A stretch of 64,000 nt of DNA from contig NC_049981.1 in the NCBI RefSeq assembly GCF_000003815.2, forward strand, positions 32,851,628 to 32,915,627. The letters run 5' to 3'. Position 1 is the stretch's first letter, and every line of letters begins with the position of its first letter. Both the position numbers and the translations under genes were made by a program. The notes under the pieces were generated by a model. The model searched no databases. It saw only the letters and a program-made list of their open reading frames with translations, and was not told the DNA's origin. The stretch is from Branchiostoma floridae. Lineage: Eukaryota > Chordata > Leptocardii > Amphioxiformes > Branchiostomatidae. Shown here one piece after another: positions 287-61,784 of this stretch.

Positions 287-368
287 CGCAGGCATCCGTT
301 ATTATTCCAACATCATCGATGGCAATGTCGCCGTAAGCGCCGCTGCCACGAACGGTCTCAAAAACAAT
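287..368 (-). CDS. Gene A MAM domain exon 3
   Basis: This 82-bp exon encodes [19 protein letters not shown] followed by VGIITDAC, the conserved C-terminal strand and fourth cysteine of a MAM domain. It is bounded by CACAG at its acceptor and GTGAGT at its donor and ends in phase 1. Identical-length exons occur at 18382-18463, 53729-53810 and 59006-59087. It is the last exon of gene A inside the window. Confidence 0.88.
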
Positions 369-3300
369 CTGTGATGATGTAATAAATCGTCATTGTGATG
401 ACATGTAGGTAATTATGAACATGTGTGGTTACCATTAAAGGTTTCATCTACTAGTATTTTAGTAGTAAGTCATATTATAAAAACATCAAACATATGTCAT
501 TTGCTATGACCAAAGAATTGACGTAACATAATGATAGAACGAAAAGAGCTCTTTATTAAAGAGACCAACAAATTCGAATGCAACTATTCCACAAACTGTT
601 TGATTATGTTTTCAACTCAGAACTTCATTGTGCAAACTGGCCGTTTCTAACTATGTTTTTTCCCGTGTCCTACCAAAATATCCGGGGGGGGGGGGGGAAC
701 CAAGACTTGCGCTTCCACCAGTCAATATACTAGAATACCATTTGTACAGATTTATTGCATCTTGTCAATCAATCTGTTATTTTGCCTTTATGTGTTTGTT
801 CAATAAAAAAAAATCGAATTCCATCCAAATTTCTCCACGTTTCCAGACAAAAAGAAAACTACTCTTAACATCATAAAACCCACACAGAGTTACTTATTAG
901 CCTAGAGTACTCGCTCACAATAGTGTTAACCTAGCCTCTACCAGGCACCACAGGTCGCTAGAAAAATAGTAAAAATTGGTCAGATGAGACAGAAAACACG
1001 CCAGAGGAGTACCGTTTGCGACCGGCCGGACAACACTCCTAGGCCAATTAACCCCTACTTGGCCAAAGTCCCCTATTCGGCCATTCGGGTGTCTGGTAGA
1101 GAGAAGTGTTTACCGTTGTCTGTCATTTTGTCACTCGCAATTAGCCTTCGGGCACAAATCTATTAACTTGTATTTCTAACCTGTAAGAATCCTTCCCGTT
1201 TTGGCAGTGCCAACTCGCTGAACTTCCAGTGGTCCCCCTGGAAGTCTGACCTACTGAAAATGGCCTCTCCAAGGCTGTTGTTCCCGCGCTGTTTCACGTA
1301 CACGTTGAGGGTGCCGACTTGTGTGCCGTACATGTGGTAGTTAAAGTTCAGACAGAGGTTGTTCTCCGTGTTCAGCGGTGCGCTGATGAGCCGAGCCGTG
1401 TCACCTGCGGTACCACCACTGGCCTCAACGTACATGTACTTCCCTATAGAGGAACAAACAATACATTACAGTGAAGAAGTGTATTCCAAGATTTTTAATT
1501 CTCTGTAGAATTTGACCTTTTGTCACAGGAAGAGGGGATCGGACACGTGCCCCTACCAATTTCGTAATACACGTTAGTTTACATCTTGCTACATTTTGTA
1601 TTTTGCGTAGTCTGGTTTTCAGTGAAAAATACGGTAAACTCTCGGGCTATTTTGCAATTTAGCGAGCTCTAGCCGATCTAAAAAAATCGGCCGACGTTCG
1701 CTTGAACTGAGAGGCAGGCTTAACCCTATCTAGACCAGGGGGGGGGGGGGGCTAAAAGTGTCTGCGCTAACTTTGACGTCGTATAACTGGCGAACGACGT
1801 GTGCTAGGACTACGAAACTTGGTGACTTTTCCTAAAATATTGTTAGCAACAATTCTAAGAAAAAAAATTTAGTTTGTGATTTTTCGCGTTGCCATGGCAA
1901 CGGGTTTCTGACAGGCATATTTTCCCAAATTTACTAATTTCAGCTTGAATTATGGGATTTCATAGTTTTATTGCTAGATCAAACTTGTTTATTCATATCA
2001 TTAACATCCTGTGTAATTTTAAGTTACATTTCTAATCAAATATTCATGATTTATGCTAATTTGATGACGTCATGGGTCAAAATCCAAGATGGCCGACAAT
2101 GTCATTTTCAACGATAAATACATGTAATTTTTACTCAAATACCGTCAAAATCTTTGATTTCCTTACAAAACACAATCACTTGATCATGTCTAGTCCGTTT
2201 CTATTAGGTTTTGGGGTTATATGTGGAAAAAGCCGTATTTTATAACATTCAAGCTTGTCGATCCAAGATGGCGGACAGATGACGTCATTTTCTGACGTCA
2301 TATAGACGTCAGTGTCGTCGTCATTGGCAACAAAGGACTTGGCAGACTTAGACACCAATAAGATAAGCTTTATAGTCATCATTTTGTTCAATACATTTAA
2401 GTATAGCGGAAATTTCATATTTTGAAGATCTTAGCGCAAAATATGACATTATGAAGCAGAGTTACGTCATATTACGTCATAATCACGTAACGTGTTGTCA
2501 TGGGGCGGCCCAGTGTTACTGGTGGGGGTGTGCTGACTCCCCCAGACCTGTACCTGTACTATTGCGGAACGTGTTGTCATGGGGCGGCCCGGTGTTACTG
2601 GTGGGGGTGTGCCGACTCCCCCAGACCCGTACCTGTGCTATTGCGGAACGTGTTGTCATGGGGCGGCCCAGTGTTACTGGTGGGGGTGTGCTGACTCCCC
2701 CAGACCTGTACCTGTGCTATTGCGGAACGTGTTGTCATGGGGCGGCCCGGTGTTACTGGTGGGGGTGTGCTGACTCCCTTATACTGTACCTGTGCTATTG
2801 CGGAACGTGTTGTCATGGGGCGGCCCAGTGTTACTGGTGGGGGTGTGCTGACTCCCCCAGACCCAGTCCGTGTCGTCGCTCGTGTCTTGTGTGAAGCCGC
2901 AGCCCCCGGCTCCGTGCTGGAAATCACAGAGTGCCCAGGGCTCTGGAAAAAGAACAGAGGATAAGATGTATATATACTCTTGTCCATTTTGCATGTTTAT
3001 GTATAATTATATTCATATGAAACATCTCATTGGAAACATGGAAGAGCACCTATGTTGGGAATCAAAAAGGAAGCGAAATAAGACAATGGTGCGTCATGTA
3101 CTATCACTGTATCGTTGACGAAATTGTGCCGTTTACTACAGATTGTCATGGTATAGTAGACGTAAATCATAACGAAGTCGACAAGGGGAGGCACGAAGCA
3201 GGGTCATAAAAATAACTATTCCTTGCCGGGGCGAAACGATAAAGAAATGGACGAAGTACGGCAACGATAGTGTGCAACATACTTACCGCCCGAGGTGCTG

Positions 3301-5860
3301 GGTCCGGTACCGGTGGANNNNNNNNNNNNNNNNNNNNNNNNNNNNNNNNNNNNNNNNNNNNNNNNNNNNNNNNNNNNNNNNNNNNNNNNNNNNNNNNNNN
3401 NNNNNNNNNNNNNNNNNTAAATTTTATTAAGGAAAACTAAACGAAATCGTTTCGCATGGCCACATTTGTACAACATTATTTGTCCTTTCTGGACGCTTAC
3501 CGAACCGAGCATAGACATGTTCGTTTTCAAAGGTGGAAATCTCAAAGCCTAACATGGTCATTTAACCCGCAATCCTTGTAATGCTTTGGATCACTTCTAC
3601 GCAACCTTATATATATATATATATGTTGTTTATTGTATATAGATGCGTATACAGCAATAATCGTAAATCGAAAGCCCTGTTCTAACGTCAGACCAGACAA
3701 CGGTGGTCATCTGTTGTTCGAAATCAGCAAAAATACGACTTTGCCATGCGTTTTTACATCGCCTCGCTAAATACCTGTCCAGCAGATCCGGGAGGGCCGG
3801 GAGGTCCAGGAGGTCCGGCCTGACCGGCTGGGCCCTGCGGACCGTCTAGTCCATCAGTTCCAGGTGGACCGGAAGGTCCTGTTGGACCGGGTGGTCCTGC
3901 CTGACCGGCTGGGCCGGGTGGTCCTGTCTCACCGGCTGGACCGGGTGGTCCTGTCTCACCGGCTGGACCCTGTGAACCGTTCAGTCCATCAGATCCAGGC
4001 GGACCGGGTGGTCCTGTTGGGCCTAGTGGTCCTGCCTGACCGTCCCTTCCAGAAGGACCGGAAGGTCCGACTGGGCCCTGCAGACCGTTTAGTCCATCAG
4101 ATCCAGGCGGACCGGGAGGGCCTGGTGGACCGGGAGGACCATGTGGTCCCGTCTGACCGTCCCTTCCAGAAGGACCGGGCGGGCCCTGCACACCGTCCCT
4201 TCCAGCAGATGCAGCAAGGCATCCTGTTCATTAGATAACAATTGATGTTTCATTTGATCGTCACAAGAAAACATACAATTTTGGTGTGGTAAGATCTCCG
4301 TGTACATGCAACAAACAACTGGATGCGACTTTGGAAACGGTCAGAGTCCTTTAGACGTTTCAGGTAGCCTCTCAATTACCTTTCGTCAGTGACCGAGGAG
4401 AGCTTCTTGGAATGCAAGTTTTATACCCTATTATCACCCAAATAGCCGAAGTATACGTGGTTTATCAAATTAACATCATACATGGTGAGTTATGCTGCTA
4501 CTGAAAGAAATAATAACTATAAGAGGTTGAATAGAAAATATAAAGCAAATCATTCAAATAAGTGTCTCCTACCCCCAAGAGTCATCGGCAATGTAATCTT
4601 GTTCGCAAAGTCTCCAGTGTTGTGCACGGATCTCTTGGCTCGCTGATGCACTTCAGCTCCGTACAGAAAGGTGGCGCTTTTACCACGCCTATCTCCGTTC
4701 ACGTCCTCCTGAGCATTCGGGCCTTGAAGACTGACCTGTTGGGCGACATTACATATACCTCATTAACTCCGTATCAAGCTAATATGTTTATCTTGCTTGT
4801 CGTTTTTAGTCTCGCTCGTCAGGCTGACTAACAGGTTGGCAAAGGTCAAACTCGACCAACCGTGTAATGTGAACACGTTCATCTGGAGATCTGTCCTGCA
4901 GGTCCAGACTAAAGACCGCAGGGGACGACTTTTCTCCTCATTGCACTCGTGCAGACAAAGTCGTTAAGTTTGTAATGCTGTGCACCGGGACCAAAATCTC
5001 TTGAAGGCTGTCATCGTTTGTTAAACATACCAAAATATTCTTGATACCAAGGCACAATCCAAAATTGCACAAGTCCGCTTTATAACCTTGCCTAAAGTCA
5101 TGGCAACTTTATTTCTACATCACGTACAATAACACATCACGTTTAACTTTTTTTAGATTTACAGAAAGTTGAAATAACATATAGCCAAAAGAACATACAG
5201 CATTTCGTCTTTACCAGAGATACAATTTCTTTTACTCTTGATCTGATTTCTAATAACAGCAACAATTTGTCTTGTCAACCAGCAGAACTATACATTTGTT
5301 TTACCCTTGGTCTGTTTTCTTGGTAGAGGCTGGGGAGCAAAAGTGGAACAGGAAACCGTTACAGTTCATTACCGGTACCTGCAAAATATTGCGTCAGCTC
5401 TTATGATCTGGGGTTTTTAGCGTCGTTTAAGCACAAATAATGTGGGTAGAAGTGCTAAATAACACAGTCTCACGCAGCACCCTGAACCAAAAAAAAAGTA
5501 TCTATTTGGAGTTCGTCTTGAATTAGAGAGAGAACTACTTGTACTAAACGGTCTTACCTGCACGTCTAGGTGTTCTCTCCATTGTCGCAGCTCTTGCACA
5601 TGCGATTCCATTTCCTTCAGCTGCGCTTCAGTTTCCTTCAGGTGCGTTTCCGTGTCCTTCAGGTGAGACAGCTGTAACTTGATCTCGCCCAGTTCCGCCC
5701 CCAGCCGCACCATTACAAACACGACGACAAACATGGTGACGAAGCTGACAATCACGGCCGTGACAGCCACGATCAGTGTACCCTGGCCATTTGATGCCCC
5801 TTTACCCCGCACGGCTCCGATCTTGGGGTAAGTCATGTCGTACAGCGTTTCGGAACCCAT
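287..5860 (-). CDS. Gene A: type II membrane collagen-MAM protein, 3' part outside window
   Basis: Predicted exons on the minus strand are 5558-5860, 4573-4735, 3775-4223, a gap-damaged exon ending at 3287, 2790-2940 (or 2942), 1181-1443 and 287-368. The protein reads as a short cytoplasmic tail, one membrane span (about residues 28-51), an amphipathic coiled coil (52-101), a hinge with RAKR, a Gly-X-Y stalk of about 140 residues, a Ser/Thr/Pro linker and a complete MAM domain. By comparison with gene B, SRCR and fibrinogen-related exons should follow to the left of base 1; this is inference. The ATG at 5860 was chosen because MGSE/MGSK starts are shared by genes A, B and C, with a purine at -3 and G at +4. 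Two N runs hide most of one exon and the proximal promoter. No in-frame stop is seen in the visible exons. Confidence 0.82.
369..1180 (-). other. Gene A intron between MAM exons 2 and 3
   Basis: No exon is seen here. The stretch holds a 12-13 base G run near 685-698 and a short plus-strand ORF (984-1166) with no recognisable features. Confidence 0.5.
1181..1443 (-). CDS. Gene A MAM domain exon 2
   Basis: The 263-bp exon encodes the MAM core, starting [19 protein letters not shown] and including the [11 protein letters not shown] cysteine strand. The acceptor is CTATAG and the donor GTTAGA. It is entered in phase 1 and left in phase 0. The four paralogous exons in the window have exactly the same length. 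Confidence 0.92.
1724..2490 (+). mobile_element. TTAA-flanked dispersed element rich in CRE, YY1-like and RFX-like motifs
   Basis: The element starts CCCTATCTAGACC directly after TTAA (1720-1723), followed by a long G run. The same start after TTAA occurs at 63919 (cut by the window edge) and, inverted, at 19478. The gene B intron has an uninterrupted TTAA at 20055-20058 in the homologous context, so this copy is an insertion. Inside are TGACGTCA palindromes at about 2065, 2280 and 2293, AAGATGGC(G/C)GAC motifs near 2085 and 2268, and a perfect RFX-type palindrome GTTGCCATGGCAAC at 1888-1901. The far end runs into the minisatellite at 2491 and no matching terminal inverted repeat was found, so the class is undetermined. 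No transposase ORF is seen. Confidence 0.6.
2491..2870 (-). repeat. 79-bp minisatellite made of a MAM exon tail plus its splice donor
   Basis: Five copies start at 2491, 2570, 2649, 2728 and 2806, with periods of 79, 79, 79 and 78 bp. On the minus strand each unit is the last part of MAM exon 1 ([18 protein letters not shown] region), and four of the copies are followed by a GT donor (GTACAG or GTACGG). Only the copy at 2806 is continuous with the 5' half of the exon, so it is the functional one. Its intron begins GTACAGTATAA, as in gene D, so reading past the native donor meets TAA at once. The extra donors lie at 2712, 2633 and 2554. Confidence 0.9.
2790..2940 (-). CDS. Gene A MAM domain exon 1
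   Basis: The exon encodes [20 protein letters not shown] and continues to FRNSTG, with the first two MAM cysteines. The acceptor reads CCAGAG, so the exon may start after CAG (2942) or after AGAG (2940). The visible end of the preceding exon fits the first choice (phase 1), while gene B fits the second (phase 0). The donor is GTACAG; the tail and donor are copied in the adjoining minisatellite. Confidence 0.88.
3287..3317 (-). CDS. Gene A linker exon, mostly lost in assembly gap
   Basis: The last bases of a Ser/Thr/Pro-rich linker exon ([10 protein letters not shown]) lie before a GTAAGT donor. The rest falls in the 100-N gap. The gene B counterpart is 111 bp, and flank comparison puts the acceptor about 15 bp inside the right end of the gap. 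The visible end is 7 bp longer than in gene B, which shifts the exon end to phase 1. Confidence 0.6.
3318..3417. other. Assembly gap, 100 N
   Basis: Exactly 100 N, probably a placeholder of unknown true length. The homologous gene B interval between the same flanking bases is roughly 115 bp and holds most of the Pro/Thr linker exon. Confidence 0.97.
3418..3774 (-). other. Gene A intron between collagen and linker exons
   Basis: The intron is homologous to gene B 20864-21219 and contains a short (TA)n run near 3608-3624. Nothing else is seen. Confidence 0.6.
3775..4223 (-). CDS. Gene A collagen stalk exon
   Basis: A single 449-bp exon (phase 1 in, phase 0 out) starts [11 protein letters not shown] and continues as near-continuous Gly-X-Y triplets, ending SAGQ before GTATTT. 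It has two copies of the 27-bp unit for GPAGETGPP (around 3922 and 3949), where gene B has five. A trimeric collagen helix projecting from the membrane is the expected fold; Pro is frequent in the X and Y positions. Confidence 0.93.
4573..4735 (-). CDS. Gene A hinge exon with RAKR motif
   Basis: The 163-bp exon (phase 0 in, phase 1 out) encodes the region between coiled coil and collagen. The bases for RAKR followed by Ser lie at 4631-4642. RAKR matches the furin consensus R-X-K/R-R and is kept in genes B and C. It is preceded by the conserved block TFLYGAEVH and followed by FANKITLP. Confidence 0.9.
4736..5557 (-). other. Gene A intron 1
   Basis: The intron is homologous to the gene B and C first introns but lacks the MITE that interrupts gene B. 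No exon, repeat or site was recognised. Confidence 0.5.
5558..5860 (-). CDS. Gene A first coding exon: tail, membrane span, coiled coil
   Basis: It codes 101 residues in phase 0 up to a GTAAGA donor. The tail [15 protein letters not shown] holds YPKI, which fits a YxxΦ sorting motif. RGKG before the span supports the N-in orientation. The span is longer than in gene B because of an extra VVVF. The following [19 protein letters not shown] stretch has heptad spacing. Confidence 0.9.
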
Positions 5861-5874
5861 TGCTGGATATTTCC

Positions 5875-5974: not shown

Positions 5975-7212
5975 GATTGACGATTTGTAGTCAATCGGCA
6001 CAAGGAAGAAATACCGATCTAATTGGTGTGCTAGTGCCTGAGGGTCAATTTGTAGTATTGGATAAAAGATATCGCTTTAGTTAAGTTACTGGATAAGATT
6101 CTATATATACTATACAGATTCTTCCATCTAGATTATGTGATGCATGAAAACGGATTCTGTTGTTTTGTTTAATTTTTTTTTATTCTGTCAACAATTACTG
6201 GGGTCACTGGAGCCAGCGACAGGTCATGTTTTATCTGTTCTTGTTACTGATAGAGTTTCACACTTTGTTTGCTTCATGATCAGGAGTAGTAAAAGTTAAT
6301 GGTGAACAGTGAGCATCACGGACATGGTAAAACATAGCACTGCCTCTGTCTAGAGTTCCTCCTCTGAGCATGCCGTAATTCAGAGGCTGTCGGGTCATGC
6401 CCGACACACGACGAAGTTTCGCAACTAAGACCGATGATTCCCGACCGCCTTGCTTTAAAGGGTCACTGGGCAAAATGTAGCATTTCTAGTTTGATTATTG
6501 TGACATACGCCCGGGGCTCAGTTTGTCCTCCAATACCTACAGATTACGTTCTCACTTGTCCTGATGAGGTTAAAACCTTTTTTATGCGATGGTGAACTTA
6601 AGAACTTTCATTTTCTTAGAACTAACAACAAATAAAACATCATGTTAGAGACAGTGTGACCAAGCACGTCATGATTCTGAGATTCCGTGACCGCCTTACT
6701 TTAAAGGGTAACTGGGTAAAATGTAGCATTGCAGGTTTGGCATACGCCGCGGGCTCAGTTTGTCCTTCAATACCAAAAGATGAAAGATTATGTTATATCA
6801 TTAAAATCACTTGTGCGGATGAGGTTAAAACCTTTTTAATGTAGTATTGGTTTTCTCTTTGTAACGATGAAAGTAGAAAATGTACACGGTTAGTGCAGTT
6901 TGATTTTGACTCTTACCAACAACGTACCTGTCCTGACCTCTGATAACCCGTGTGTAGAGACGACCGGTTTTACAGACGTGGTGTGTACAGACTTGTTACA
7001 GTCGCGCTGGAGTGTGTGTTTATACAGAAATCACTGATGCATGAAATACCCAAAATGCAACTTAAATGTCCTTATATCTCAAGGTACAGTAAAAATACGT
7101 GTAAGACCAGTGACGTGAGCAAGCAGAAAACAGACCAGCGCGATTTGGGGACAAGAATGTGTCGGAATTTCTTTGTTCGATGATTTCCATTTGGGTAGTC
7201 TATATTCAATCT
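5975..7212 (-). other. Spacer upstream of gene A, proximal half
   Basis: Homologous to 24180-25100 (gene B) and 46180-47200 (gene C). It contains the anchor GTTTATACAGAAATCACT at 7018. A local duplication is unique to this copy: the block with GGTCACTGGGCAAAATGTAGC near 6460 recurs as GGTAACTGGGTAAAATGTAGC near 6704, each followed by GGCTCAGTTTGTCC. No ORF of substance is seen. Confidence 0.6.
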
Positions 7213-8259
7213 TAGAGGAGGCATCCGGCCTATCCCACAATACATTGCGGTTTCCGGTCTACGCCAGATATATACGTTGGACCGGAAGTTCTAGTTCATT
7301 CGAAACTATGTCGGCGCCTCAGACGGATGGGAAAGCGGTGTCTCCCGGCTTTTCGTCCTGTAAGCATAATAATATAAATAATAAAGACAGCTAATGTTCT
7401 ATGAGGCCGATAATGTGTATGAAACATATGGAATTCCAGATAAGGATAGAGACATAGTAACCTTAGCGGGAATGAGGGAAAATCATAAAGAGCGGATTAA
7501 CTCAGCATTGTACCAGACACTTTCAGTACATCGAGCGGACAAACAGGTTCAGTCAATCATTCTCTTGCTGATATCATGCACGAGTAAGCACCCTGGGAAT
7601 AAAACCACGTGAAACCAGATCACAAGCACCTTGAACCGGAAGCAGAATGAACCGGAAGTATATAGCACCTTGAGTCTACGTCTAGCGCAACACAGTAGAC
7701 GGAACCAGCCTCACGGAAAACAGGGATATCAAAATAGTTTGTCAGTTTGTACCGTATCGATAAGTCGCTATTCCTGACATGGGAATGCTTACAAGCTGAT
7801 ATTGTGTCTGCCAACCTGCGGTGCGGCCGATTTTCTCTGGTAGCTTCAAATTGACAGCGATAATCCCGGGGCTGCCGGCAAACAACACAAGTGCCAGCGC
7901 AAGGTCACCAAAAATTCCCCGCACCAAAGCTGCTTGGAGTGGCCAGACGTTGTGTGGCAAAGGTGAGTCTCTACCATCTATCGTTGCACAATTTTGTGTC
8001 TCTGGCATCCTTTGTAAACTCAACCTCCTTGGTAAACTATTTTCTCCGTATTTTCTTACAAACAGTCGCCGTATCGGGCGAACGTAAGTTGTTGGGGGGA
8101 GGGGGGCAAAGCTTGTTTTGTGCGGAGGAGACATGAACCGCAAATACCATGACGTTTTTAACAAAACCAACGTAGAATTTCAATATTAGAACATATGTTT
8201 CAATTTTGATTGTATTAAAAATCTGGGAGGGGCGACAAAATTGTGCTACAAATCTGTTT

Positions 8260-8608
8260 CAGGGCTCAAAATACCACCTACATAATTATGCATGTTAGTG
8301 CAGGTAAAATTGGAGTTTTTTCAGGTATTTCTGGTGTCTACCTGCACCTATATTAAAATTGCACTGGTCCATATACTAGGTTTTATACATAAATGTCCTG
8401 GAGATGTAGGTGGATTTGATTGTTATTAGCTCAGCATTGACTGTTACCACCTATTAAGTATATATTAAAAAAATGGTTCCTGAACAATTTTAGTATGATC
8501 CATACTTTCAAAATTCAGAATGGTGCAGGTTAAATTTGTCTGGTGTAGGTAATTTTCAGTGTTACCTGCACCAGTGCAGGTATGCAGAAAAAAGTATTTC
8601 GAGCCCTG
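8260..8608. mobile_element. Nested hAT-type MITE
   Basis: About 350 bp with inverted ends CAGGGCTCAAAATAC and GTATTTCGAGCCCTG. CAGGG termini are typical of hAT non-autonomous elements. No clean target duplication is seen. The interior has repeated TACCTGCACC-like motifs in both orientations. Confidence 0.6.
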
Positions 8609-8756
8609 GTTTTAGATCCAGCGTCGTGTGTACACTGCTGTGCTAATTTTTAGCAGGGCCAATACTTAAAATCAGTCAAGTCTAATTTTCCTGCTTGTAA
8701 TGATATGGACAATAGTAAACCGTTACAGTAATGTCCTGATCTTATGATCAGTTAGG

Positions 8757-8880
8757 CCTGGATGATGTATGCATGGGCTGGCATTTTTGCTGGAAACCTT
8801 TACAGTTACAAGGTTGGCAATGTAAATGTAAATGTAAAATTTTCCTGCAAAAATGCCAACCCATTCATACGTCATCCAGG
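8757..8880. repeat. Long hairpin (imperfect palindrome)
   Basis: The left arm CCTGGATGATGTATGCATGG and the right arm ending CATACGTCATCCAGG pair over about 34 bp, including GGCATTTTTGC with GCAAAAATGCC. The loop holds short AATGTA repeats. Probably a small foldback element. Confidence 0.6.
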
Positions 8881-8959
8881 TACATAACAGTGCTGTTCAA
8901 GTACCGCAAACCGACCATGCAAAATGGCTTTGAGCCTTTTGGCATAATCAGTTGCGTAC

Positions 8960-9040
8960 TTGGTTTTGTGAGTTTGGCTGCCCGGCTCCAGTGCGATAGG
9001 TCGCAGATTCGAATCCCGGGGTTGAGCTTGCGGTAAAAAC
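8960..9040 (+). repeat. tRNA-like B-box stretch, possible SINE relic
   Basis: GCAGATTCGAATCCCGGG contains a pol III B-box-like core (GATTCGAATCC), but no full cloverleaf and no clear A box could be drawn. It is best read as a decayed tRNA-derived SINE head. Confidence 0.3.
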
Positions 9041-9390
9041 TGTTCTACTCGCCTCTAGCGTTTCACAGGACTAATCATGATTAGTGTGCCTATTGTCATT
9101 TCTGTGTCATGGATTCAATCTTATCCCTCAATACAGTGGTTCGACGATGGCGGTGAATTCTAAAGCACATCTTAGAGATGGGAGTGGGAAGGTATCACAC
9201 CTTCGTCAGTTGACCCCCATCAACCACTGCAGACAGCCTTGATGACTTGGACTACAGTGATGAAGACAGTGAGTTGTGAAGCAGTAACATGTTAAAGATT
9301 ATGCCACAGAATAATAATAAAAATATGTGGTGATTGCAGTCTTTCAGTAGTATATATGACAGTCTAATACACTTTATGGAAAATGTAAGA

Positions 9391-9607
9391 TGTTGCAACT
9401 GTAATACTGTATATACACGGTACACCGTATGGAAAACTCAAGACGGTGATATCTAAAGCCTTAGTAAAGGAAGTTGCAACTGTAATACTATATGAACACT
9501 GTGGAAAACCCAAGACAGTGATACCTTGTTATAAAAGGAAGTTGCAACGTGATACACATTCACTGTGCAAAAATCAAGACAGTGAAACCAAGAAGATGTT
9601 GCAACAT
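9391..9607 (+). repeat. Degenerate tandem repeat
   Basis: GTTGCAAC recurs near 9392, 9473, 9541 and 9598. It is followed by GTAATACTGTAT-like and CAAGACAGTGA-like motifs at variable spacing (about 57-82 bp). Confidence 0.55.
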
Positions 9608-9680
9608 AACTCTATTGTCTATTAGTATATACTAGTGATATAGTAGTAATTGTGGTACAACATGTTGTATCTGTCATAAT

Positions 9681-10223
9681 TTACAGAGAAGACAAATCAC
9701 TATTATACACATTGTTTTTGTCATCTGCTCCCCACTTGCCTTTCTTCACAACTACTATTGAAGCTCCAAACCCATTCTGTACAGGGTGTAGTTCAAACTT
9801 GGGTGTAGATGGTAATGTAACAGATACGATTTCTTCTCTCTTCATCATCTCAACAGGCATGTAACCAATAATTTTCCAGTGGTTTACCAAGGCATCGATT
9901 TTAATAGCATTTCTGTCCTAATGGTTGTCCGGTTCAAAGTCCAATCTAACTGGAACAGGCCTCATGTTGACTAACATTTTGTCTTTTACAGCTGCAAGAG
10001 TGTCTTGGTATTTCCTTTCTCGTGTCAAGCCGCGCTGTTCAATGGTGGCTGCCTCCAATTCTTCATCATCATCACTGTCTTCACTCTCTACTGGAGATGG
10101 ATGGGAAGTGGCTGATGCAGGAGTGAGGGAGCCACTAGCTGGGCAGCAATATGGACAGTCTCCATAATCCAGCACCGGCATGTTCTCAGGGGTATGGATG
10201 CCAGACTGACTAAGAGTTGGCAC
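9681..10223 (-). pseudogene. Decayed ORF with HIRAN-like segment inside the 5-kb element
   Basis: One reading frame runs from 10223 to 9681 with a single internal TAG at 9918-9920. Upstream it contains CPYCC, an acidic ESEDSDDDEELE stretch and PVPVRLDFEPDNH. After the stop it continues DRNAIKIDALVNHWKIIGYM. The pattern EPDNxxDxNAI...IGYxP resembles HIRAN domains (for example HLTF/RAD5), with the stop where Gln would be expected. The acidic-linker-HIRAN order is sometimes seen in multicopy invertebrate ORFs of uncertain role. The assignment is by motif memory only. Confidence 0.45.
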
Positions 10224-12212: not shown

Positions 12213-12250
12213 ATTCTGGGTAACCCCGGATGCCTCCTCTGATTCAATCT

Positions 12251-42138: not shown

Positions 42139-42169
<31 letters not shown>

Positions 42170-51109: not shown

Positions 51110-54100
51110 CTGATGGGAACGTTACGGCATATCATTGTTAGAATCGATTTGTAAAGATTGTTCATTCTTGCAGGTATTGAACAAAAGTGGCTTAGTTCAA
51201 GCTACATCTTCATTGAGCTAACCCCAAAGGCCCCATTAGAGGTAAAGTTGGGGTGGGGTGGGGTATGTATATTGCGTGGTTGTTATTTATTATTGCTATT
51301 GTATATAGTTAGTCAATAGCTATTATTGTTAATTGAAATCATGTGAATATCCATAATGCCTGACATGATGACTGCGCAAAATGTCATCCGTGTCGTCTTG
51401 TTTCAATTATTTATGTACATGTATGTATGTTTGTATATAAAGGTAAATCGTATGTGTGAACATGCGTGTCTCAGTGTAATTGTAAAGATAGCATTCTGCC
51501 AACGGAGACCCAGATCTCGGTCCTTACCCCGATATGTGCGTGTGTGTTTGCGTTCACATGTGTGTAAGCTTTTTGTCCCACAAAAAAGCACTAACCTAAA
51601 AGTGCTATACAAGGCGAATCGTTTGTTGCCTTGCCAATCTTCCATGTCAATTCTTAGTTCGTGGTTTTTAAAGTTTGTCATGAGGTGGATGACCTCGTTC
51701 CCAAGCCAAAACTCCCCCTTTTTGTCGCCAAAGCCCAGTTTGTACTCCTCCCAGTTCCGGTTGAAGGGAACCGACCCGTCCTGCCGCCGCTGGATCACAG
51801 TCCACCCGCCTCCTGTGAACAAGGTACAATCAAGAAGCTTGAACTATCACGGCGGACAAGGAATGTTATACTAATATCGTCAAGAAATCTGAAAGAATGG
51901 TCGAGGAATCTTATCTTATGATTGTACATGAATAGATGTATGCATTCATCATAAGGTAAAGAAAGTAATTATGTTGAGCCGCTGAAAAGGAACAATGTAT
52001 TTTAGATATTTTTCCTGATATGTGTAAACAATCATACCAGATCTTTATAAGCAGCAGACTCTGGATAAGAAATTTCCACCGAACAGTAAAACTCGAATAA
52101 CTGTATGTAAAGAATTGGGGCTGAGGAATGAGAATTGTCATAACCAGTGTAGAAAAGGAAAATTTCTGACATGCCATCATGCAGAAGTTTTTCAGGTGTA
52201 CAGTACCTGCAGTGTCCATGTCGCAGTAGGTTCCGATCCGGTCAGGGTAGAAAAACATTGTGTAGATGCCACTTGCTGTCCGCCCTGAGGCATAGTACTC
52301 ATCGCAGCCCGTAAAATCTGTGGACAAAATATGTAAACATATATATAATTATATAACTTTATCACAATACAAATTACACTGGCCTGGACTGAGCCTAAAG
52401 TCTGCGGAAACAAGTGCAAAGGGGCCGTGCAACTTTGAAAGTTCTGACTGATAGGAGCAAGGGGCCAGTCACTGGCCTAAGCGCTTAGCACGACTTGTGA
52501 TGATGAAAACCTTTGCAAACATATTCAAATACAATTCATTCTAAACAACTGGACAAACAAGACGAGATACATCCATGTATTTCCATCATTCCTTTGTTCA
52601 GTTTTTACCCTTGGAAGATGTTGAAAAATGACCCTGCAGTTCCATGCAAGCTGCTAGGGGCCAAAGCTTAGAGCACTTCTTTTTTACATCACAAAGTATC
52701 TGTCGCCAACAATTTGGAAGCACAGACACACACAGATACACACACACAAAGCAATATCTCCATTTTCATGGAGATAATTACAAAGCCAATAAAGCTATAA
52801 AAACAATCCTACCATAACAGGAAACACTGGCGTCTTCGTCGTGCGCACAGTCGTGATCCCCCCAGCCGTTGTGCGGACAGTCGACCAGTCTGGACTCGTT
52901 CCCGGTACAGGCCAACTGGTCCAACCAGATGTGGCCGCCGCCCCGCCCGAAGGACCGCTGGGAGGAGACAGGCCGGGCGTAACGGTAGCCCAGCTGACGG
53001 CACACCACCTGCGCATCCTCGTCTCCCCACCGGTCGTTACAGACCGTTCCCCACTCCCCGTAGTGAAGCACTTCCACCCTTCCTTCGGCAGAGGTGTTCC
53101 CGCCGGTAAGACGTACTATAGAGATAAAAGGTGAACAGAAAGTGTTTCATCACGTGCGACAAGTCGGCGTGATAAAGCTAGCCTGCGAACCTGCAGCTGG
53201 AGTGTTGCGCTAGCCTCTACTTAAACAATAGTAACAATTGGCCAATTGATACTGTAAATGCACTTAATTTCGCGGTTGCGGGAAAAAAGACTTTTCGCAG
53301 TGGTTTTAAGTTCGCGGTAGCACCATGCACTGTAGTCTCTTACTGCCATGGAAAAATGTTCGCGGTGGTTTTAAATTCGCCGTGAAGCGGCCACCACGAA
53401 AACCGCGAACATTAAACCACCGCGAAAGTTCCTGCATTTACACCAGAGGATTTAGCTTTTAAGTCAAAGTCAAAGCTGACCTAGGAGTACATTTTGTGGC
53501 CTACGTTGAGTGTTACCCGTAATAGAGATGCTGGCCAATTCTGATTCAATAGATGTTTTATCGAAATGGTCAGAATATATGTCCATGTACGTATCTATTA
53601 TCGTATTAGCATTTGTCTGGTTTTCGTGAAATATCTAATCGGATGGGAAGTCAAATCCTAATGCCATCTTGCGCAATGAATTAAAATTCTACACAACCCC
53701 TTGTTGATTTGGAGAGAAGGGTACTCACCGCAGGCATCCGTTATTATTCCTACATCATCGATGGCAATGTCGCCGTAAGCGCCGCTGCCACGAACGGTCT
53801 CAAAAACAATCTGTGATGATGTAATAAATCGTCATGGTGATGGCATGTAGAAAATGTATGGTTAATATGAATGTCTCAATATGGATATTAAAAAAAAAAC
53901 ATTTTGATGGTATTTTGTAGAAGTCAGCTATGAAGCAAAACAAATGTTACTAGCAATTATATTGAATTTCTAACCTGTAAAAATCCCTCCCGTTTCGGCA
54001 GTGCCAACTCGCTGAACTTCCAGTGGTCCCCCTGGAAGTCTGACCTGCTGAAAATGGCCTCTCCAAGGGTGGTGTTCCCGCGCTGTTTCGTGTAGACATT

Positions 54101-57100
54101 GAGAGTGCCGACTTGTGTGCCGTACATGTGGTAGTTAAAGTTCAGACAGAGGTTGTTCTCCATGTTCAGCGGTGCGCTGATGAGTCGAGCCGTGTCACCC
54201 GGGGTGCCACCACTGGCCTCAACGTACATGTACTTCCCTATGGGGGTGACAAGGATTACGTTAGGATGAAGGACCATATTGCAAAATGTATTACAATCTA
54301 TTTTCAACTCACCTTTGAAAGAAAGTGCATTGGTAGCAAGGCAGAAATATAGCTGGTAGATACACGAAGAAATGACGTACGTATTATTATATTGATAAAG
54401 GTTAATTCAGCATGGCCTTCTGATGTACTTGGAATGGAATACAGTCAAACCTGTCTACAACGGCCGCTCAAGGGCTGTAGAAATGTGGCGATTATAGACA
54501 GGTGGTCACTATAGAGAAAATGCTGATCATTTGATCGAGCAATAAGTTACATATGATTTAAGTACCCACTGATCTATCCCACCAAGTAAGATTGTCTCGA
54601 CCGTCTCAAAATTCAACTGTCCCTGCATATGCCAAAGTCAAATCTACTGAAAATTGTCATGCGCATTTTTTGGTAAATTCGCTGACAAAGACTAGATCTA
54701 ATGTTCAAGGCACGCGTTCCTTCCGCTGCCTCCAAAGTGACCCTGTCTGGAACTCCAAATCCTCGCAAAATACGATTTTTTAAACCCAGCGCAGGGTGAC
54801 ATACGGCCGCTGTATGGTCGCAATATGCAGTGTTTCTGTAACATACGGGACCGTAAATCATGTGGCCGTGGCCGCGTTTGACAGGTGGCCGCTATGGACT
54901 ATTTCTTAATGCTTAGGTTAATGGGAAAATCCAAGAGACCGTCGAAAAGTGACCGCAGTGGCCAGGTGACCAGTATGCAAAGGTGGCCGCTAATACAGGT
55001 TCGACTGTACTGATATTATTCGCCCTGTCATTTAATTGTAAACCTAAAATTTCAGGAATCTACCACTGTTGTATTTCGTCACTACAGGTTTACCATTTTC
55101 TGGACATGCATGTCGGCTACGAAATCCTCGTATCAACTTCTACTCGTAGGGTTGCACTACGATTTGATAGCACAGCTGGGTTTTAGTCCTTGAAAATCAA
55201 GCTATTTATTCTGCTGGCTATTCGGTTGCCGACATTCTATCTTCTTTTGCTCCTTAATCTAATCAGTATCAAAGTCAATCCTCTGCAAGACTAAACATGT
55301 TATGAGCTGGTGGGCTATATTCACATCGGTTACCATTGTACAGTTGTACGATATAACAAGGGAAGACTCAGCAGTACATTGGAATAGTTTCAACAACCAT
55401 TATCATATAGTAAGACGACGTCGACCAATCGGAAGTCCCCATTTCCTGTTGGTTATGACGCTATAACACAGAATTGCGGCGAGCCGGGTAATAGATAAAA
55501 GTGTTAAAAAGAAATGTTAAATGATCAGACATCGAATCCAATCAGAAGGAGCAATTTACAGTGCACTCACCAATGAAACTAATTGTTTCGTCCGCCAATT
55601 TCGAACCAGAATCATGGAACGAGAGGACCGCAAGGTGCCTTTTTTCTGTCAAGAAATCTCAGAGACAGATTTAGGCTCATTTTTCGAGTCACGGGTGGCT
55701 GGGGAAGACGCCCTGGAGCAACAGCCAACAGCTGACGGGCAGGAAGCTAAACAAATTGGGCAAAACGGCACGAGCAAAGGCGCGGGTAGTTTGGATAAGA
55801 TATGATACTGCCGTTGATGACCCGCCTATTCCTCAGTGTATGAATTACAAATCAAGCTCATTCTCTTCAATCACTAGCTAGGTGAATGTATACGGTGGTC
55901 ATACACCTTGTAACAGACCATCAATCATCAATTATACTGTACCTGTGCTGTTGCGAAACGTGTTGTCATGGGGCGGCCCAGTGTTACTGGTGGGGGTGTG
56001 CTGACTCCCCCAGACCCAGTTGGTGTCGTCTGTCGTGTCTTGTGTGAAGCCACATCTAGCAGCTCCATGCTGGAAATCACAGCGTGGCCACAGGTCTAAA
56101 AAAAGGGAAATACAAAAAATATATACTTGTTTTACCATTTTGAATATTTCTATGTATGTATGTATGTATGTATGTATGGAATATCTCATAGGGGGTACGG
56201 AAGATCACCTATGTAAAGAATCAAAAGGTTACATGGAATTAGAAAAATTTATTTTAAAAAACGTTACGATGATATACTATACCGTTGTATCGTTGACGAA
56301 GTCGTTATGCTCAATAGTCAATACATATGCCATGATACAGTAGACATAAATCAAATTGGTTATTTGTCTAGATGACATTTTAAGGGAAAGATGTAATTCA
56401 ATGAAGATTAGGCATTATAGTGACCACTAAAATACTAAAGTATGTCGACAAGGGAGGGCATGATGCATGGCCTTGAAAATAACTCTTCCTTGCCGGAGCC
56501 ATACTGTGTTGGAATGGACGAAGTGCGGCAGCTACATTCTGAGATATTAACCTGGAAGTTCATCTGTGTTGGCAAAAGTCATTCTGAATAAAGTTAAACT
56601 GCAATTTTTTCAAGAAATTGGACTTACCCAAATTAACGAATGATCAACGCCAGTCTTTTCCGTAGACTGTCTGAGACAAATGTTCCACTGCTCACCGGGT
56701 CACGCGTGCTGTCTACATACTGTGACATTTGGCGATTAACTGAGTTTATTAAGTTTATTGAGATACCCTTTAGCTCAGATTACTGAGTTTGGTAGCTTTA
56801 GCGTTAGCCGTTCAGGAGTTATGCGCCTTCAAATTAGCTGAGGCCCCAAAAACTCCTCCAGACTCTCATAATAGGGTTAGTGGTAAACTTGGCCTTTCTG
56901 ATCTTTTGCAAAAATCATTATAGATACATGGAATAAATAACACCTTAACATGTCCAAATATTCCTCTTTCATTGAGGAAGCAATGTATGTACAGCGATCA
57001 CCGATAAAAGTTAAAAAGAAGACTTTATTGAACGGACCCCACTACTAGGTCATTTCAGTCGGAAAAAAGGTCGGGTGTTAGAGGGGTAATGTAGCAAGAA

Positions 57101-60100
57101 GACCTGGAAAATTCATTGTTAGAACCAAAATTAGCGATTTTCGTCAAAAATGCTTTTAAACAACCGGTTGCCATGGCAATACGTAAAACTGGAAAACTTC
57201 TCAAATTTTGTGAAATTGTTGCCAACTACATTTCAGGACAAGTCGCTAAATTTGGCGGCTCTAGCTAAGCCGTTCAGGGGTTATGCGACATAAAAGTTAG
57301 AGCAGGCCTAACCATCATTCAGTATTTGTTTCCACAGAACTGATCCCTAGTTATGTTGTCTCTATGCGTTTTTGAACGAATCTTCAAAACTTGCAATAAA
57401 AATATAAAAGCAATCTTACCATAACAAGAAACGCCAGCGTCCTCGCCGATCGCGCAGTCGTGATACCCCCAGCCGTTGTGTGGACAGTCGGTCAGTCTGG
57501 ACTCGTTCCCGGTACAGGCCACCTGGTCCATCCAGATGTCTCCTCCACCCCGCCCGAAGGAGCGCTGGGAGGAGACAGGCCACGCGTAACGGTAGCCCAG
57601 CTGACGGCACACCACCTGCGCGTCCACGTCACCCCACCGGTCGTTACAGATCGTTCCCCACTCCCCGTAGTGAAGCACTTCCACCCTTCCTTCGGCAGCG
57701 GTTTTCCCTCCGACAAGGCGTACTGTTGAGATAAAAGGTGAACAGAAAATGATTCAACAAAATCGGCGTGATAAAGCCGTTCCTGCGAATCTACAGCTGG
57801 AGTGTTACGTACGTATACGCTAGCACATACCAGGATAAATAGACATAGAACACGCCAGAGAAGTTAGGTGACCTCAGAGTACAGTATGCGGTCTAGAGTG
57901 ATAGGCGGAATAGAGACGCTGGCCAAATCTGATTCAATAGTTGCTATAGACCGTTATTAAATTTGCTATCCAAAACTATCATCAATAGTACAGTGAAACT
58001 GAAATAAGCGGGGGAAATGTATTCTCCCTGATGTTGTTTTATTCTCTTTTAACGCAAAATTTCAGACACTCAAGAATCTGCATGGATTTTGAAAACGTTA
58101 AGACGTTTAAGGTAGCATCCAAAATCTTTTGTCATTGACAAAAGTAAATTCATTAGATTTTTAACACAAACTATGAACTGATATTTAAATGAAGTGGAAA
58201 CAAATTGTTTACATCCCAATTGGAAATAAAACGTCAATACAATATTACAGCTAATGAGCCAATATCTGTTGTGCGAGTACAGGAGCTAAATGTTCGTTCC
58301 ATAATGTTTGACGTATGTATACGTTTGCCCACTAGCATTATTGCTATGCTCAGCACGATTTGTCATTATATCGCTGTCACATTATCCACGATCTTCGGGC
58401 GTATCGATGGACGATCGGCCATATTTAAGATCGACAGAGGGTTGCGCGTATTTTTCACCTGAAAACCGTCCCTATCACATATAAGCAATACTTTGTACCT
58501 TGAATAATTGTTGTGCAATAAAGTTATTATAAGCGAGGTTCGTGCGATTGCCGCAGAATCGTCGTCCGATCGATTTTCGTATAATAAATCTTTTCTGTAA
58601 CGTTCGCCGCAGACACGCGCGTCTCTCGTCTTGAGCGACGATTATAGGACGGTTATGCTTCTATCTTATATGCCCTGTATGTTTCTTGATATGCAAATGT
58701 ATGTTGTTAATAATGTTATTGTACAGTTGATGTTGTTTCATGTGCGGAAAGGCAACCTGTAAAGGTGTGTTCGCACCTATCCCCCCCTTCACTCTGTGAT
58801 AAATTCAACTAAAGAAAACAACAGACCTCTGTCAGAGATGTTTTACCGAAACTGTCGGTACTTACCTATAACCGCATTGGAATTTGTTTAGTTAAGGCTA
58901 AATATCTGGTGGACTGCGCATGTGTAGTCCAACCATCATCCTATAAAAAACAATCAATCGATGTTTTACAAAATCCCCTGTTGATATAGAAAGAATGGTA
59001 CTTACCGCAGGCATCCGTTATTATCCCGACATCATCGATGGCAATGTCGCCGTAAGCGCCGCTGCCACGAACGGTCTCGAAAACAATCTGTGATGATGTA
59101 ATAGATTGTTATGGATATATGTAGGAAACCATGAACAAAACACACTGGATGGCCATCTTGAGGATAAAACGTCATTCTTGTGCAGTTCAAATAATGTTTC
59201 TGTATATATACATTTCCCCACCCGCTGATGAAAATGGAATGGCCGCTGAATGATGTGATCAAGACTCCCAGGGCTGGGCTAAACATGTGAGAAACAGATG
59301 TGTTCTTAGACATAGGTCAAAATAAGATGGTTTAACAGAAATATAAAAAAACTCTGTTCATTTCTGTTAATTGGCCACTACTACAATTTAATGCATCTCT
59401 CCATGTAGATTATTTAAAGTACCTTTCAGCTAAACACAATGCAAATGAATTAAATCGTGCTTGAGTTATTCCCTTCCACAGATAATAATAAGACACCCGT
59501 TGCAGTTCAAAACGAGCCGCTAGGTTTATTCAGCACTTACTCCCTGCCCCAACACTCATCTACGACTGTACCTGGCACTTGCAGAAACCTTGACTTCAAA
59601 CTTTGCCCCTCCGCTGCAGTACCGTAACTCGCCGCTAGAACGCCCATTATGGAACTTGACCGATGTTCATCCGACCCCTACTTATCCACCAAATATCATG
59701 CAAAACCATCGGCAACGTCTCGAGTTATTCTGTCCGCAAACAAACGGACACACCCACCCGGCCCGCTACCGTCATGACGAAAAATGCTACGCCAATCGTT
59801 TTTGAACCCGTCGTTCCTTATCGCAACCGCTATTCAAATACCAAACATCATGACAATCCATACTCAGCTTTTCGAGTTATATAGTATTAACCTAACGTTA
59901 CATAAAGACACACACAGCAAGCCATAACCGGAAATAAAACCTTCTTGGTGAAGATAATGATTACTCATTTCAGCACAGCTCCTAAAGCCACATTTTCCTC
60001 GGATCCAGAAGAGAGTGTTATTTTCTGAAAGACCACATCGACACGAAATCTGTAAAAATTAATCACAGATGAGCAAATAAATGGACCATTTGTAACCCAG

Positions 60101-61784
60101 TATCTGAGTGTTGCCCCTTCATGCTATTCACACACATGCTGCAAACATTGTTTTTAAGATCGGACCTCGATTTCCTAAGAGCTAACCATTTTTATGAAGG
60201 CCTTTTTAAAGTATTAAGAGCAAATGTCTGTAAGAATGTCTGAAAACACTAGTGCTCTGGGTCAAAAAATCGATTTGGCTCGTATTTTGCACAGTGATAG
60301 TACTTGGCCCATAACCCCTCAAAATAGCTTTCTTTCCGGTCAAAACTCATTGTTGCCATGGCAACAGCCCGAGCAAGTGTTGAGGCCATTTTCACAGATT
60401 TTTGCATGTCAACAACATGGAAATTGGCCAAGTTTAGGACCCGATTACTGCCCCTACGCAATAAGACGGAGGCATTCTTGGCAGTGACATCTTTAATTCT
60501 CAAGTCCGAAGTGATGTATCAGGTACAGTCATCACGAGATGTCAGTGGCCTAGTGAAGCTAGGCGGAACCGTAATAGAATATATACAAGGAACGAACTAG
60601 TGTAATCGTACGATGGGCACAACCGTAAAGGCCCTACAAGGTAACATTAAAAGACGTATACAGATTCTTTCAAGGCTTAGAAATACTGCATGGTGAAAAT
60701 GAAACGGTCTCTGCCCGACGCAGGAACAGAGCTTCACCACTAAAGGCGTTGAGACGCCCAACTATGTAACGACCATCTTCGGTGGTTGCATTAAAAACTA
60801 GAGTTCCACGAACACATATCTTCGCCAAATAAACAATTTTTTATCAAGATTGTTGTTTTTGAAATGTTGTTAATTTTGGAAAATAGATATGTAATGAAAT
60901 CATTGAAATGCTTCAAATTTGTAATGTGAGTTTTTGAAGTTTATGTATATTGTTTTGGAATGCAGTGAATTTATATTGTTTGTGTATTTTTGCCTGCATT
61001 TGAAATGCTGGCATAGCTTTTGGTATGTCTGTGTGTGTGTCTGTCTGTCTGCGTTTTTGCATATTTGTGGCCAGCATAAGTTTAGTAGCTTTGAATGGAT
61101 TGTAATGATATTTGGTATGTGGTATCTTTTTACTTGGACATGGTATGGTTATATGTAAATATTTCTTTAAGAGCTACCAAGTTGAAGTTTGTCCAATTGC
61201 TGTTCGCATTATAATGTGTTACACTTGGTTATAATTTAATTAGAGGGTACTCAGGGGTTAATGCTTTATAATGCAACTGCTAACTTGTCCCAGTTCAGTA
61301 TCAAGTGGCCGATACAAGTACATTTTGGGATTCAGAAAAATATCATTAGCAGAACCAGAACACTCCCACCTGTAGTACGGTATGTCTAAGGTGATGTGTC
61401 AGAATCAGTCTACAGGAAAATCTAAGTCATATGTTAAAAGAAATTGGTGTTATTTTGCGGAAGTCAGCTATGAAGCAAAGCATTGACCTAATATTAATAG
61501 CTACGAAATTGAATTTCTAACCTGCACATATCCTTCCCATTTCGGCAGTGCCAACTCGCTGAACTTCCATTGGTCCCCCTGGAAGTCTGACCTGCTGAAA
61601 ATGACCTCCTCAAGGGTGTTGTTCCCGCGCTGTTTCACGTAGACATTGAGAGTGCCGACTTGTGTGCCGTACATGTGGTAGTTAAAGTTCAGACAGAGGT
61701 TGTTCTCCATGTTCAGCGGTGCGCTGATGAGCCGAGCCGTGTCACCTGCGGTGCCGCCACTGGCCTCAACGTACATGTACTTCC
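50785..61784 (-). CDS. Gene D: MAM-SRCR-MAM-SRCR-FReD gene, 5' end missing, C-terminus truncated by stop
   Basis: Exons in order: MAM-a 61522-61784 and 59006-59087; SRCR-a 57420-57722; MAM-b 55943-56095, 53975-54237 and 53729-53810; SRCR-b 52813-53115; FReD 52207-52317, 51596-51812 and 50785-51109. The SRCR-a exon ends in phase 1 and MAM-b exon 1 starts in phase 1 ([11 protein letters not shown]), so the doubled cassette reads through. The first MAM-a exon and any membrane and collagen exons were not found between 61785 and 64000. An in-frame TAG at 50863-50865 (TCGTAGTAC, where gene B has TCATCTTAC) removes the last 26 residues of the FReD. Whether 61522-57420 and 56095-50785 are one gene or two overlapping relics is not certain, but phases and order fit one. 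Confidence 0.75.
51596..51812 (-). CDS. Gene D FReD exon 2
   Basis: 217 bp, almost identical to gene [37 protein letters not shown], ending in ST-F codons before GTTAGT. Confidence 0.94.
52207..52317 (-). CDS. Gene D FReD exon 1
   Basis: 111 bp, phase 1 to 1: [20 protein letters not shown] and YCDMDTAG. The donor is GTACTG. Confidence 0.92.
52813..53115 (-). CDS. Gene D SRCR-b exon
   Basis: 303 bp, phase 1 to 1; six cysteines, nearly identical to the gene B SRCR (W-L-DQL in place of W-M-DQV). The donor is GTAGGA. Confidence 0.94.
53253..53442. mobile_element. Short MITE with TGTAAATGCA ends
   Basis: 190 bp between TGTAAATGCA and TGCATTTACA. Internal inverted TTCGCGG/CCGCGAA and GTGGTTTTAA motifs make an almost continuous foldback. 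The gene B intron reads GACACTGTTATACCAGAGG at the same place, without the element. The target duplication is not clean. Confidence 0.7.
53729..53810 (-). CDS. Gene D MAM-b exon 3
   Basis: 82 bp, [19 protein letters not shown] to DAC; donor GTGAGT as in gene A. Confidence 0.9.
53975..54237 (-). CDS. Gene D MAM-b exon 2
   Basis: 263 bp, [19 protein letters not shown] through [11 protein letters not shown] to GFLQ; intact. The acceptor is CATAG. Confidence 0.93.
54440..55009. mobile_element. TA-target MITE related to the one at 48073
   Basis: Ends TACAGTCAAACCTG and CAGGTTCGACTGTA with TA on both sides. The paralogous intron upstream of MAM-a exon 2 reads CGAAATACTGATGTTATTC near 61978 without the element. 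The interior has repeated GGCCGCT motifs. Confidence 0.85.
55440..55840 (+). mobile_element. Fragment of the composite head/tail element
   Basis: The head TTGGTTATGACGCTATAACA (55451) is followed by an open frame to 55805 ([20 protein letters not shown]) and then TGATGACCCGCCTATTCCTC, which matches the start of the hairpin tail at 35905. No function is assigned to the peptide. Confidence 0.4.
55943..56095 (-). CDS. Gene D MAM-b exon 1
   Basis: 153 bp, phase 1 to 1: [20 protein letters not shown] to FRNSTG; donor GTACAG followed by TATAA. It is entered in phase 1 from an SRCR exon, unlike its gene B counterpart (phase 0, entered from the linker). Single copy, no minisatellite. Confidence 0.9.
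56096..57419. other. Gene D intron between SRCR-a and MAM-b
   Basis: (GTAT)n microsatellite at about 56150-56178. Two related blocks with GCCGTTCAGG(A/G)GTTATGCG lie near 56806 and 57272. GTTGCCATGGCAAT occurs near 57167. No exon is seen. Confidence 0.5.
57420..57722 (-). CDS. Gene D SRCR-a exon
   Basis: 303 bp, phase 1 to 1; six cysteines ([28 protein letters not shown]). More diverged than SRCR-b, with D-V-DAQ and GWGYHDC changes. Ends TATG before GTAAGA. Confidence 0.93.
57723..59005. other. Gene D intron between MAM-a exon 3 and SRCR-a
   Basis: Partly homologous to the corresponding introns of genes B and D-b near both ends. The middle (about 58500-58680) has ATTCGTCG/CGATTATAGG-like motifs. 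No gene is recognised. Confidence 0.4.
59006..59087 (-). CDS. Gene D MAM-a exon 3
   Basis: 82 bp, [19 protein letters not shown] to DAC; donor GTAAGT; leaves in phase 1 into SRCR-a. Confidence 0.9.
59088..61521. other. Gene D intron between MAM-a exons 2 and 3
   Basis: No exon is seen. Contains a relic of the dispersed repeat (GCAGTTCAAAACGAGCCGC near 59500), a perfect RFX-type palindrome GTTGCCATGGCAAC at 60352-60365 and a TG-rich stretch near 61030-61050. Confidence 0.4.
61522..61784 (-). CDS. Gene D MAM-a exon 2
   Basis: 263 bp, [19 protein letters not shown] through [11 protein letters not shown] to GYVQ; acceptor CATAG, donor GTTAGA. Its partner exon 1 is not found in the remaining 2.2 kb. 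Confidence 0.9.

Follow-up and report, generated by a model that had tools for sequence, protein, structure and literature searches.

We begin with the described proteins that come closest to our subject, a tandem array of genes in Branchiostoma floridae whose predicted products join an N-terminal membrane anchor to a collagen stalk and a C-terminal FReD. The stretch analysed (64,000 nucleotides, hereafter the window) is C3:32851628-32915627, where C3 is contig NC_049981.1. Class A scavenger receptors are membrane proteins with a coil and/or a collagen stalk and an SRCR domain, and FIBCD1 is a type II transmembrane protein with a coil and a C-terminal FReD. The array proteins appear to follow the plan of FIBCD1 but include collagen. 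With the ficolins they share the order collagen then FReD, while differing from them by an N-terminal transmembrane segment and coil, a furin-type site and, in most units, inserts in the middle. The MACIT collagens XIII, XXIII and XXV, as described in PMC4678570, likewise combine a type II transmembrane segment, a coil, a furin site near the membrane and a collagen ectodomain; the array proteins, however, end in a FReD and not in the conserved MACIT C-terminus. That source gives furin shedding as established for these three collagens and for C. elegans COL-99, and records no MACIT in Branchiostoma. Lancelets themselves are reported to have the fastest exon shuffling among metazoans, with a bias to 1-1 phase exons, and SRCR and FBG receptor families that turn over fast (Huang et al. 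2014, PMC4284660); for B. floridae, PMC10855680 reports that SRCR has expanded. Our locus shares the phase 1-1 exons and the rapid SRCR/FBG turnover of Huang et al., but theirs is a genome-wide study whose accessible sections (PMC4284660) describe neither this locus nor the slot reported below. Nor is the module combination found described in the open literature searched, as far as its texts are accessible (among them PMC6321704, PMC10855680, PMC4284660, PMC11312191 and PMC4678570).

A search with the module exons over the window and 100 kb on each side finds an array of at least 13 units, the window's four genes included; the right end of the array lies beyond the sequence covered, so the count is a lower bound. 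Units U1 to U12 lie on the minus strand, U5, U6, U7 and U8 being genes A, B, C and D of the window. Unit U0 lies to the right of the array in the opposite orientation. Genes B and C are complete in the window, while A and D are partial, the 5' end of A and the 3' end of D both falling outside it. The initial annotation described an array of four minus-strand paralogs. The four paralogs, in the order A, B, C, D, and their strand are borne out, but they form part of a larger array. The outer limits given in that annotation turn out to be borders of MAM exons: 287 is where the third one of gene D ends, and 61784 is where the second one of gene A starts. The exon with the furin-type site serves here as the diagnostic mark of the family; a genome-wide search (513 Mb, 431 contigs; 19 of 19 candidates scored) gives 18 matches to it, all of them on C3: 15 at 32.78-33.08 Mb and three near 30.22-30.24 Mb. 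A distance of about 2.5 Mb separates these three outlying exons (C3:30.215-30.240 Mb) from the array's left end.

The units follow one constant order: a short N-terminal tail, a transmembrane segment, a coil of heptad repeats, the motif R-A-K-R/S, collagen, a stalk and a C-terminal FReD. The first exon of the units with a readable 5' end holds the short tail, the hydrophobic segment and the coil, and the FReD is C-terminal in all units with a readable 3' end. In B, C and D the hydrophobic segment (Kyte-Doolittle hydropathy 2.18-3.09) stands behind a tail of 20-28 amino acids, which is the pattern of a transmembrane anchor and not of the secreted type, as judged with no signal-peptide predictor run. 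In the same three genes the hydrophobic fraction at heptad positions a and d is 0.50-0.67 vs 0.20-0.33 overall, and the coil of C and D is made of 21-bp (7-amino-acid) tandem repeats. The furin-type motif, a predicted cleavage site, sits between the transmembrane segment and the collagen; RAKRS is present in 11 of the 12 furin exons read, with U0 as the exception, and a collagen run is present in 11 of the 12 units having that exon, none being seen in U0. We regard the membrane anchor at the N-terminus, the collagen stalk and the mosaic architecture as well supported.

The collagen ranges in length from about 9 triplets (U10) to about 106 (U12); U9 has a short run with interruptions. Where there are two MAM-SRCR pairs the triplets number 11 (A, U2 and, so far as it can be read, U11), as against 49 to 106 in units with one pair (C, D, U3, U12). 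Most of the short collagens, identified by reading Gly-X-Y triplets, fall below the Pfam cut-off of 27.2 bits (B 27.1, U2 22.8, U9 16.8). The stalk is rich in Thr, Pro and Ser, and begins with three cysteines in B, U1, U9 and U10. At the DNA level, 27-bp collagen repeats are seen at 21313-21459 (98% matches, 5.4 copies) and 3883-3969 (93%, 3.2 copies); donor-like CCG/GTGAGA sites recur within them, and the repeats are likely to be variable in length.

What, then, occupies the space between stalk and FReD? The introns at the stalk donor and at the FReD acceptor are of phase 1, and phase 1 also marks the two ends of the MAM set, of SRCR and of a domain that we call X. This slot is empty in U9 and U10, minimal units of collagen, short stalk and FReD, which are the only ones with the ficolin order of collagen before FReD. 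It is filled with one MAM-SRCR pair in C, D, U3 and U12, with two pairs in A and U2, and with X in gene B, which has neither MAM nor SRCR; the collagen/MAM/SRCR/FReD mosaic at first ascribed to all four genes thus stands for A, C and D but fails for B. In U1 the corresponding stretch holds open frames matching VWA (E 6.2e-22) and four SRCR exons, one with a stop; the VWA frames were joined without splice sites for this match and are called VWA-like only.

Domain X matches no Pfam or NCBIfam model, and its one match in PDB (E 0.71) is a chance match. In the same genome it has 91 matches at E up to 1e-3 (94 candidates scored), the nearest 83% identical; save the query itself they are all on contigs other than that of gene B, many of them on contig C4. 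A manual count gives 72 matches that cover 110 or more of the 123 positions; the other 19 are fragments, two with a stop. In all 20 copies sampled, an AG in phase 1 lies no more than 10 nt from the homologous start, and a GT in phase 1 no more than 8 nt from the homologous end; the AG is weak in copies L047 and L049, and some such sites are expected by chance. X looks like a promiscuous 1-1 phase exon. Single-sequence queries of viral contigs and genome contigs gave 3 and 26 pattern matches, and no prokaryotic or viral relative of X was confirmed among them.

Ten minus-strand units were modelled by splicing, and the same exon order and phases recur across them. Six are open without caveat: U2 (15 exons, 978 amino acids), U3 (11, 891), U12 (10, 975, with collagen and stalk fused into one exon), B (8, 533), U9 (7, 389, the first residues of its collagen exon being uncertain) and U10 (7, 396). 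Each of the two wrong frames of these six chains contains 14 to 50 stops. In gene D the chain is interrupted at one place, by an N gap in the stalk exon, and is otherwise open. Among 96 module exons across the array, the splice sites at the homologous base are AG in 86 of 86 acceptors and GT in 85 of 85 donors, in a count where the sites are not independent because paralogs are similar DNA. Outside this count stand the exons for collagen, stalk and X, three partial repeats of M1 (M1 to M3 and F1 to F3 denote the exons of MAM and FReD), one partial F3 copy, the transmembrane exon and the four SRCR exons of U1, an orphan SRCR and the whole of U0. The joining of the exons is argued from reading frames, splice phases and conservation among paralogs.

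Not all of the units are intact. The stalk exon of gene C has 111 nt vs 118 nt in U3, its nearest homolog, and because it is 7 nt shorter the gene is open only with a downstream acceptor: the M1 acceptor position used by the other units gives a frameshift and 12 stops, while the AG two bases further on restores the frame. The 866-amino-acid product and the 11 exons first proposed for gene C are reproduced on this condition, and the product has all four expected domains above the Pfam cut-off (Collagen 1.6e-26, MAM 3e-39, SRCR 1.2e-31, Fibrinogen_C 1.2e-69). The second 11-exon gene, with 583 amino acids, is not reproduced, and gene B has 8 exons and 533 amino acids instead. A strict search for a linking exon in gene B finds none and a relaxed one gives four weak candidates; its 49-nt stalk exon was identified by comparison with U1 and U10, and then with U9 by eye. 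Gene A carries an in-frame TAG at codon 951, within the last FReD exon. With its two MAM-SRCR pairs it could be taken for two genes, but this is ruled out, since its transmembrane, furin, collagen, stalk and M1 exons are found directly to the right of the window. Unit U4 is without its 5' half, and U11 is cut by gaps and has no readable M3b, SRCRb or F3 (b marking the second pair).

The tip of the protein has a history of its own. Two classes of units, I and II, which we defined from the type of their transmembrane and F1 exons, are set apart by an identity gap of 12-31 points in the transmembrane, furin, F1 and F2 exons, as against 1.0 point in F3. The tree of F1 and F2 splits the classes with a support of 100/100, while the F3 tree mixes them. 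Unit U1 joins a class I-like transmembrane exon to class II-like furin, stalk, F1 and F2 exons, and its F3 is nearest that of U4. Four loops of F3 have a ratio of nonsynonymous to synonymous rates (dN/dS) of 0.94 vs 0.26 for the rest of the exon, a value reached by 2 of 60 random column sets, and the WWF..LNGRY loop has 1.85. In line with known FReD structures, we presume that these loops lie around the ligand-binding face. It is in the FReD loops that variation is concentrated, and the boundary between the classes is blurred in the last FReD exon. Pieces of the three spacers between the window genes are homologous, with about 76-90% identity, as would be the case for spacers duplicated with the genes. 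The spacer homology, the class-mixed F3 and the hybrid U1 therefore support unequal exchange and conversion of gene-plus-promoter units, and the initial proposal that the array grew by unequal exchange of such units, spacers included, is well supported.

Combining these results, we read the array, with a probability of roughly 0.6, as a germline pattern-recognition family in which a membrane collagen-FReD frame carries a variable slot and the products are partly shed. The coil and the collagen would hold together trimers, each displaying its three FReD heads on the cell surface, and furin-like cleavage could release the ectodomain as a ficolin-like soluble lectin. The heads, plus SRCR or other modules where present, would bind microbial or altered-self surface ligands. 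The array itself would have been built by duplication of gene-plus-promoter units, its middle varied through insertion of phase-1 exons, and its tip varied as units exchanged the last FReD exon and the loops of that exon diversified. A fuller version, to which we give somewhat less than even odds, is a germline slot receptor system: a constant membrane collagen-FReD frame with one phase-1 insertion site for unrelated recognition cassettes and a last FReD exon exchanged between classes and diversified in its loops, giving combinatorial receptors that are membrane-bound or shed.

Several points weigh against the recognition reading. The coil, the trimer and the cleavage are predictions, and the architecture is read from genomic exons. 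A type II orientation, part of the initial annotation as was the now well-supported anchor, is likely from the types of module beyond the transmembrane segment and the absence of another N-terminal signal; it rests mainly on the module types because the net charges of the tails, just 0 in B, +2 in C and +1 in D, support it weakly. U0 has lost the RAKR motif and shows no collagen run. The separation of the classes in the transmembrane and F1 exons is partly built in because the classes are defined from them, the gap in F3 is itself near significance (120 of 2000 permutations), and monophyly of class II in F3 is not rejected by an approximately unbiased test (p 0.062). The F3 loops were picked after the alignment had been viewed, and with a bootstrap range of 0.63-1.41 (40 resamples) their value does not show positive selection. 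Finally, part of the array may be non-functional, given the shift in gene C, the stop in gene A, the gaps of U11, the truncation of U4, the stop in a U1 SRCR exon and the state of U0.

The nearest relatives of the modules bear on the strongest competing explanation, which we think unlikely: an adhesion or matrix family, whose membrane collagens join cells to the matrix or to each other with adhesive FReD and MAM domains and no recognition of microbes. Among solved structures the gene C FReD, which had been called FIBCD1-like, is nearest to angiopoietin-2 (6e-62), followed by angiopoietin-1 and the ficolins (about 3e-53); the tenascins rank below these, and FIBCD1 is lower than angiopoietins and ficolins (3.1e-50). 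The gene C MAM is nearest to MDGA1, and furin-shed membrane collagens are matrix-associated molecules (PMC4678570). All of this would suit adhesion. The turnover of copies, the F3 loops with dN/dS near 1 in an exon otherwise at 0.26, and the variable cassettes in the middle would, on the other hand, be unusual in a matrix protein. Six cysteines are counted by hand on the translation of the gene C SRCR, the number given for group A SRCR domains including MARCO in PMC10855680. This SRCR matches CD163, MSR1, DMBT1, SCARA5 and MARCO, with MSR1, SCARA5 and MARCO at 2e-30 to 1e-25; CD163 and other SRCR proteins match equally well or better. The MARCO likeness suggested at first holds in so far as MARCO, SR-AI and SCARA5 also have a membrane anchor, a coil and/or collagen stalk and a six-cysteine SRCR. 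It does not hold for the head, since here the SRCR is internal and optional (absent in B, U9 and U10), a FReD forms the tip, there are additional modules (MAM, X or VWA-like), and a RAKR site precedes the collagen.

Selection on the exons bears on a second and less probable explanation, that the array consists mostly of decaying duplicates, with few functional genes and numerous pseudogenes in a stretch where unequal exchange readily occurs. Pairwise dN/dS among A, B, C and D is 0 to 0.58 in all nine exon types compared. Across the array (the U1 transmembrane and SRCR exons left out and the gene A stop codon masked), mean dN over mean dS for unit pairs is 0.07 in M3, 0.14 in M1, 0.24 in SRCR and F2, 0.25 in the furin exon and F1, 0.31 in M2, 0.43 in the transmembrane exon and 0.55 in F3. 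The exons are under purifying selection, and these means, together with the fully open U2, U3, U12, B, U9 and U10 and a gene D open save for its gap, argue against wholesale decay. It is to decay that one would ascribe the defects listed above in A, C (under canonical splicing), U1, U4 and U0, and perhaps the single pairs that reach a dN/dS of 1.48 in F3 and 1.20 in F1. That the modules are separate, overlapping or nested genes joined by eye is very improbable: the joining is read from genomic sequence, introns run up to several kb and one in gene B houses a reverse-transcriptase frame, but order and phases are repeated in ten modelled units, six of them open through 7-15 exons.

The coordinates of the features are collected in Table 1. 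Some further elements accompany them. The reverse-transcriptase open frame in the gene B intron (RVT_1, E 9.1e-31) is at 42805-44373 (minus strand). A 341-amino-acid open frame on the same strand (30921-31943) lies between the X exon of gene B and the first FReD exon; it has no Pfam match at 1e-3 and by eye looks like a retroelement remnant. Two runs of exactly 100 N, probably assembly gaps, are at 3318-3417, covering part of the gene D stalk exon, and at 5875-5974, directly upstream of the gene D start codon. The region of U0 also holds another F3-like exon on the other strand. Scans of the window with Rfam (gathering threshold) and for tRNA found nothing.

Table 1. Features of the array in and next to the window (window coordinates).
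Feature	Position	Strand	Remarks
Gene A, 3' part	50785..61784	-	M2, M3, SRCR, M1, M2, M3, SRCR, F1, F2, F3 (10 of 15 model exons); in-frame TAG in last exon
Gene A, five 5' exons	68045 to 65332	-	transmembrane, furin, collagen, stalk, M1; outside the window
Gene B, complete	28164..45902	-	8 exons, 533 amino acids; Fibrinogen_C E 5.7e-71
Gene B, 5' exons	45902-45660; 45196-45028; 41118-40994; 40766-40718	-	transmembrane/coil; furin; collagen; stalk
Gene B, 3' exons	37327-36956; 30598-30497, 30064-29848, 28488-28164	-	X domain; FReD (three exons)
Gene C, complete	15392..23922	-	11 exons, 866 amino acids with shifted M1 acceptor; transmembrane/coil, furin, collagen, stalk, MAM (3 exons), SRCR, FReD (3 exons)
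Gene D, 5' part	287..5860	-	transmembrane/coil, furin, collagen, stalk (partly in N gap), MAM
Gene D, SRCR and FReD	-153 to -2467	-	left of the window
X domain exon of gene B	36956..37327	-	phase 1-1
Furin-site exon of gene B	45028..45196	-	HRRAKRS
Furin-site exon of gene C	22170..22332	-	HQRAKRS
Furin-site exon of gene D	4573..4735	-	HQRAKRS
Spacer C/D	5975..14725	.	homologous in pieces to the other two spacers
Spacer B/C	24337..28000	.	spacer homology
Spacer A/B	46178..50590	.	spacer homology
Partial copy of last FReD exon	14924..15248	-	tandem, frameshifted; downstream of gene C
79-bp tandem repeat, 4.8 copies	2489..2863	-	3' part of first MAM exon of gene D and its donor site

Since domain shuffling in lancelets is already known, the new part, within the literature searched and the portions of it accessible, is this locus, its single slot and domain X. 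The array displays exon shuffling at one defined site, with empty, single, double and heterologous versions of the slot side by side; because these versions coexist in one array, the steps by which a receptor is invented become datable and testable. The designs of scavenger receptors, ficolins and shed membrane collagens would be united in one protein, and an exon domain of 1-1 phase that Pfam does not model, matched 91 times in a single genome, is brought to light. If the recognition reading is right, the locus would bear on the ways in which chordates that lack adaptive immunity diversify recognition.

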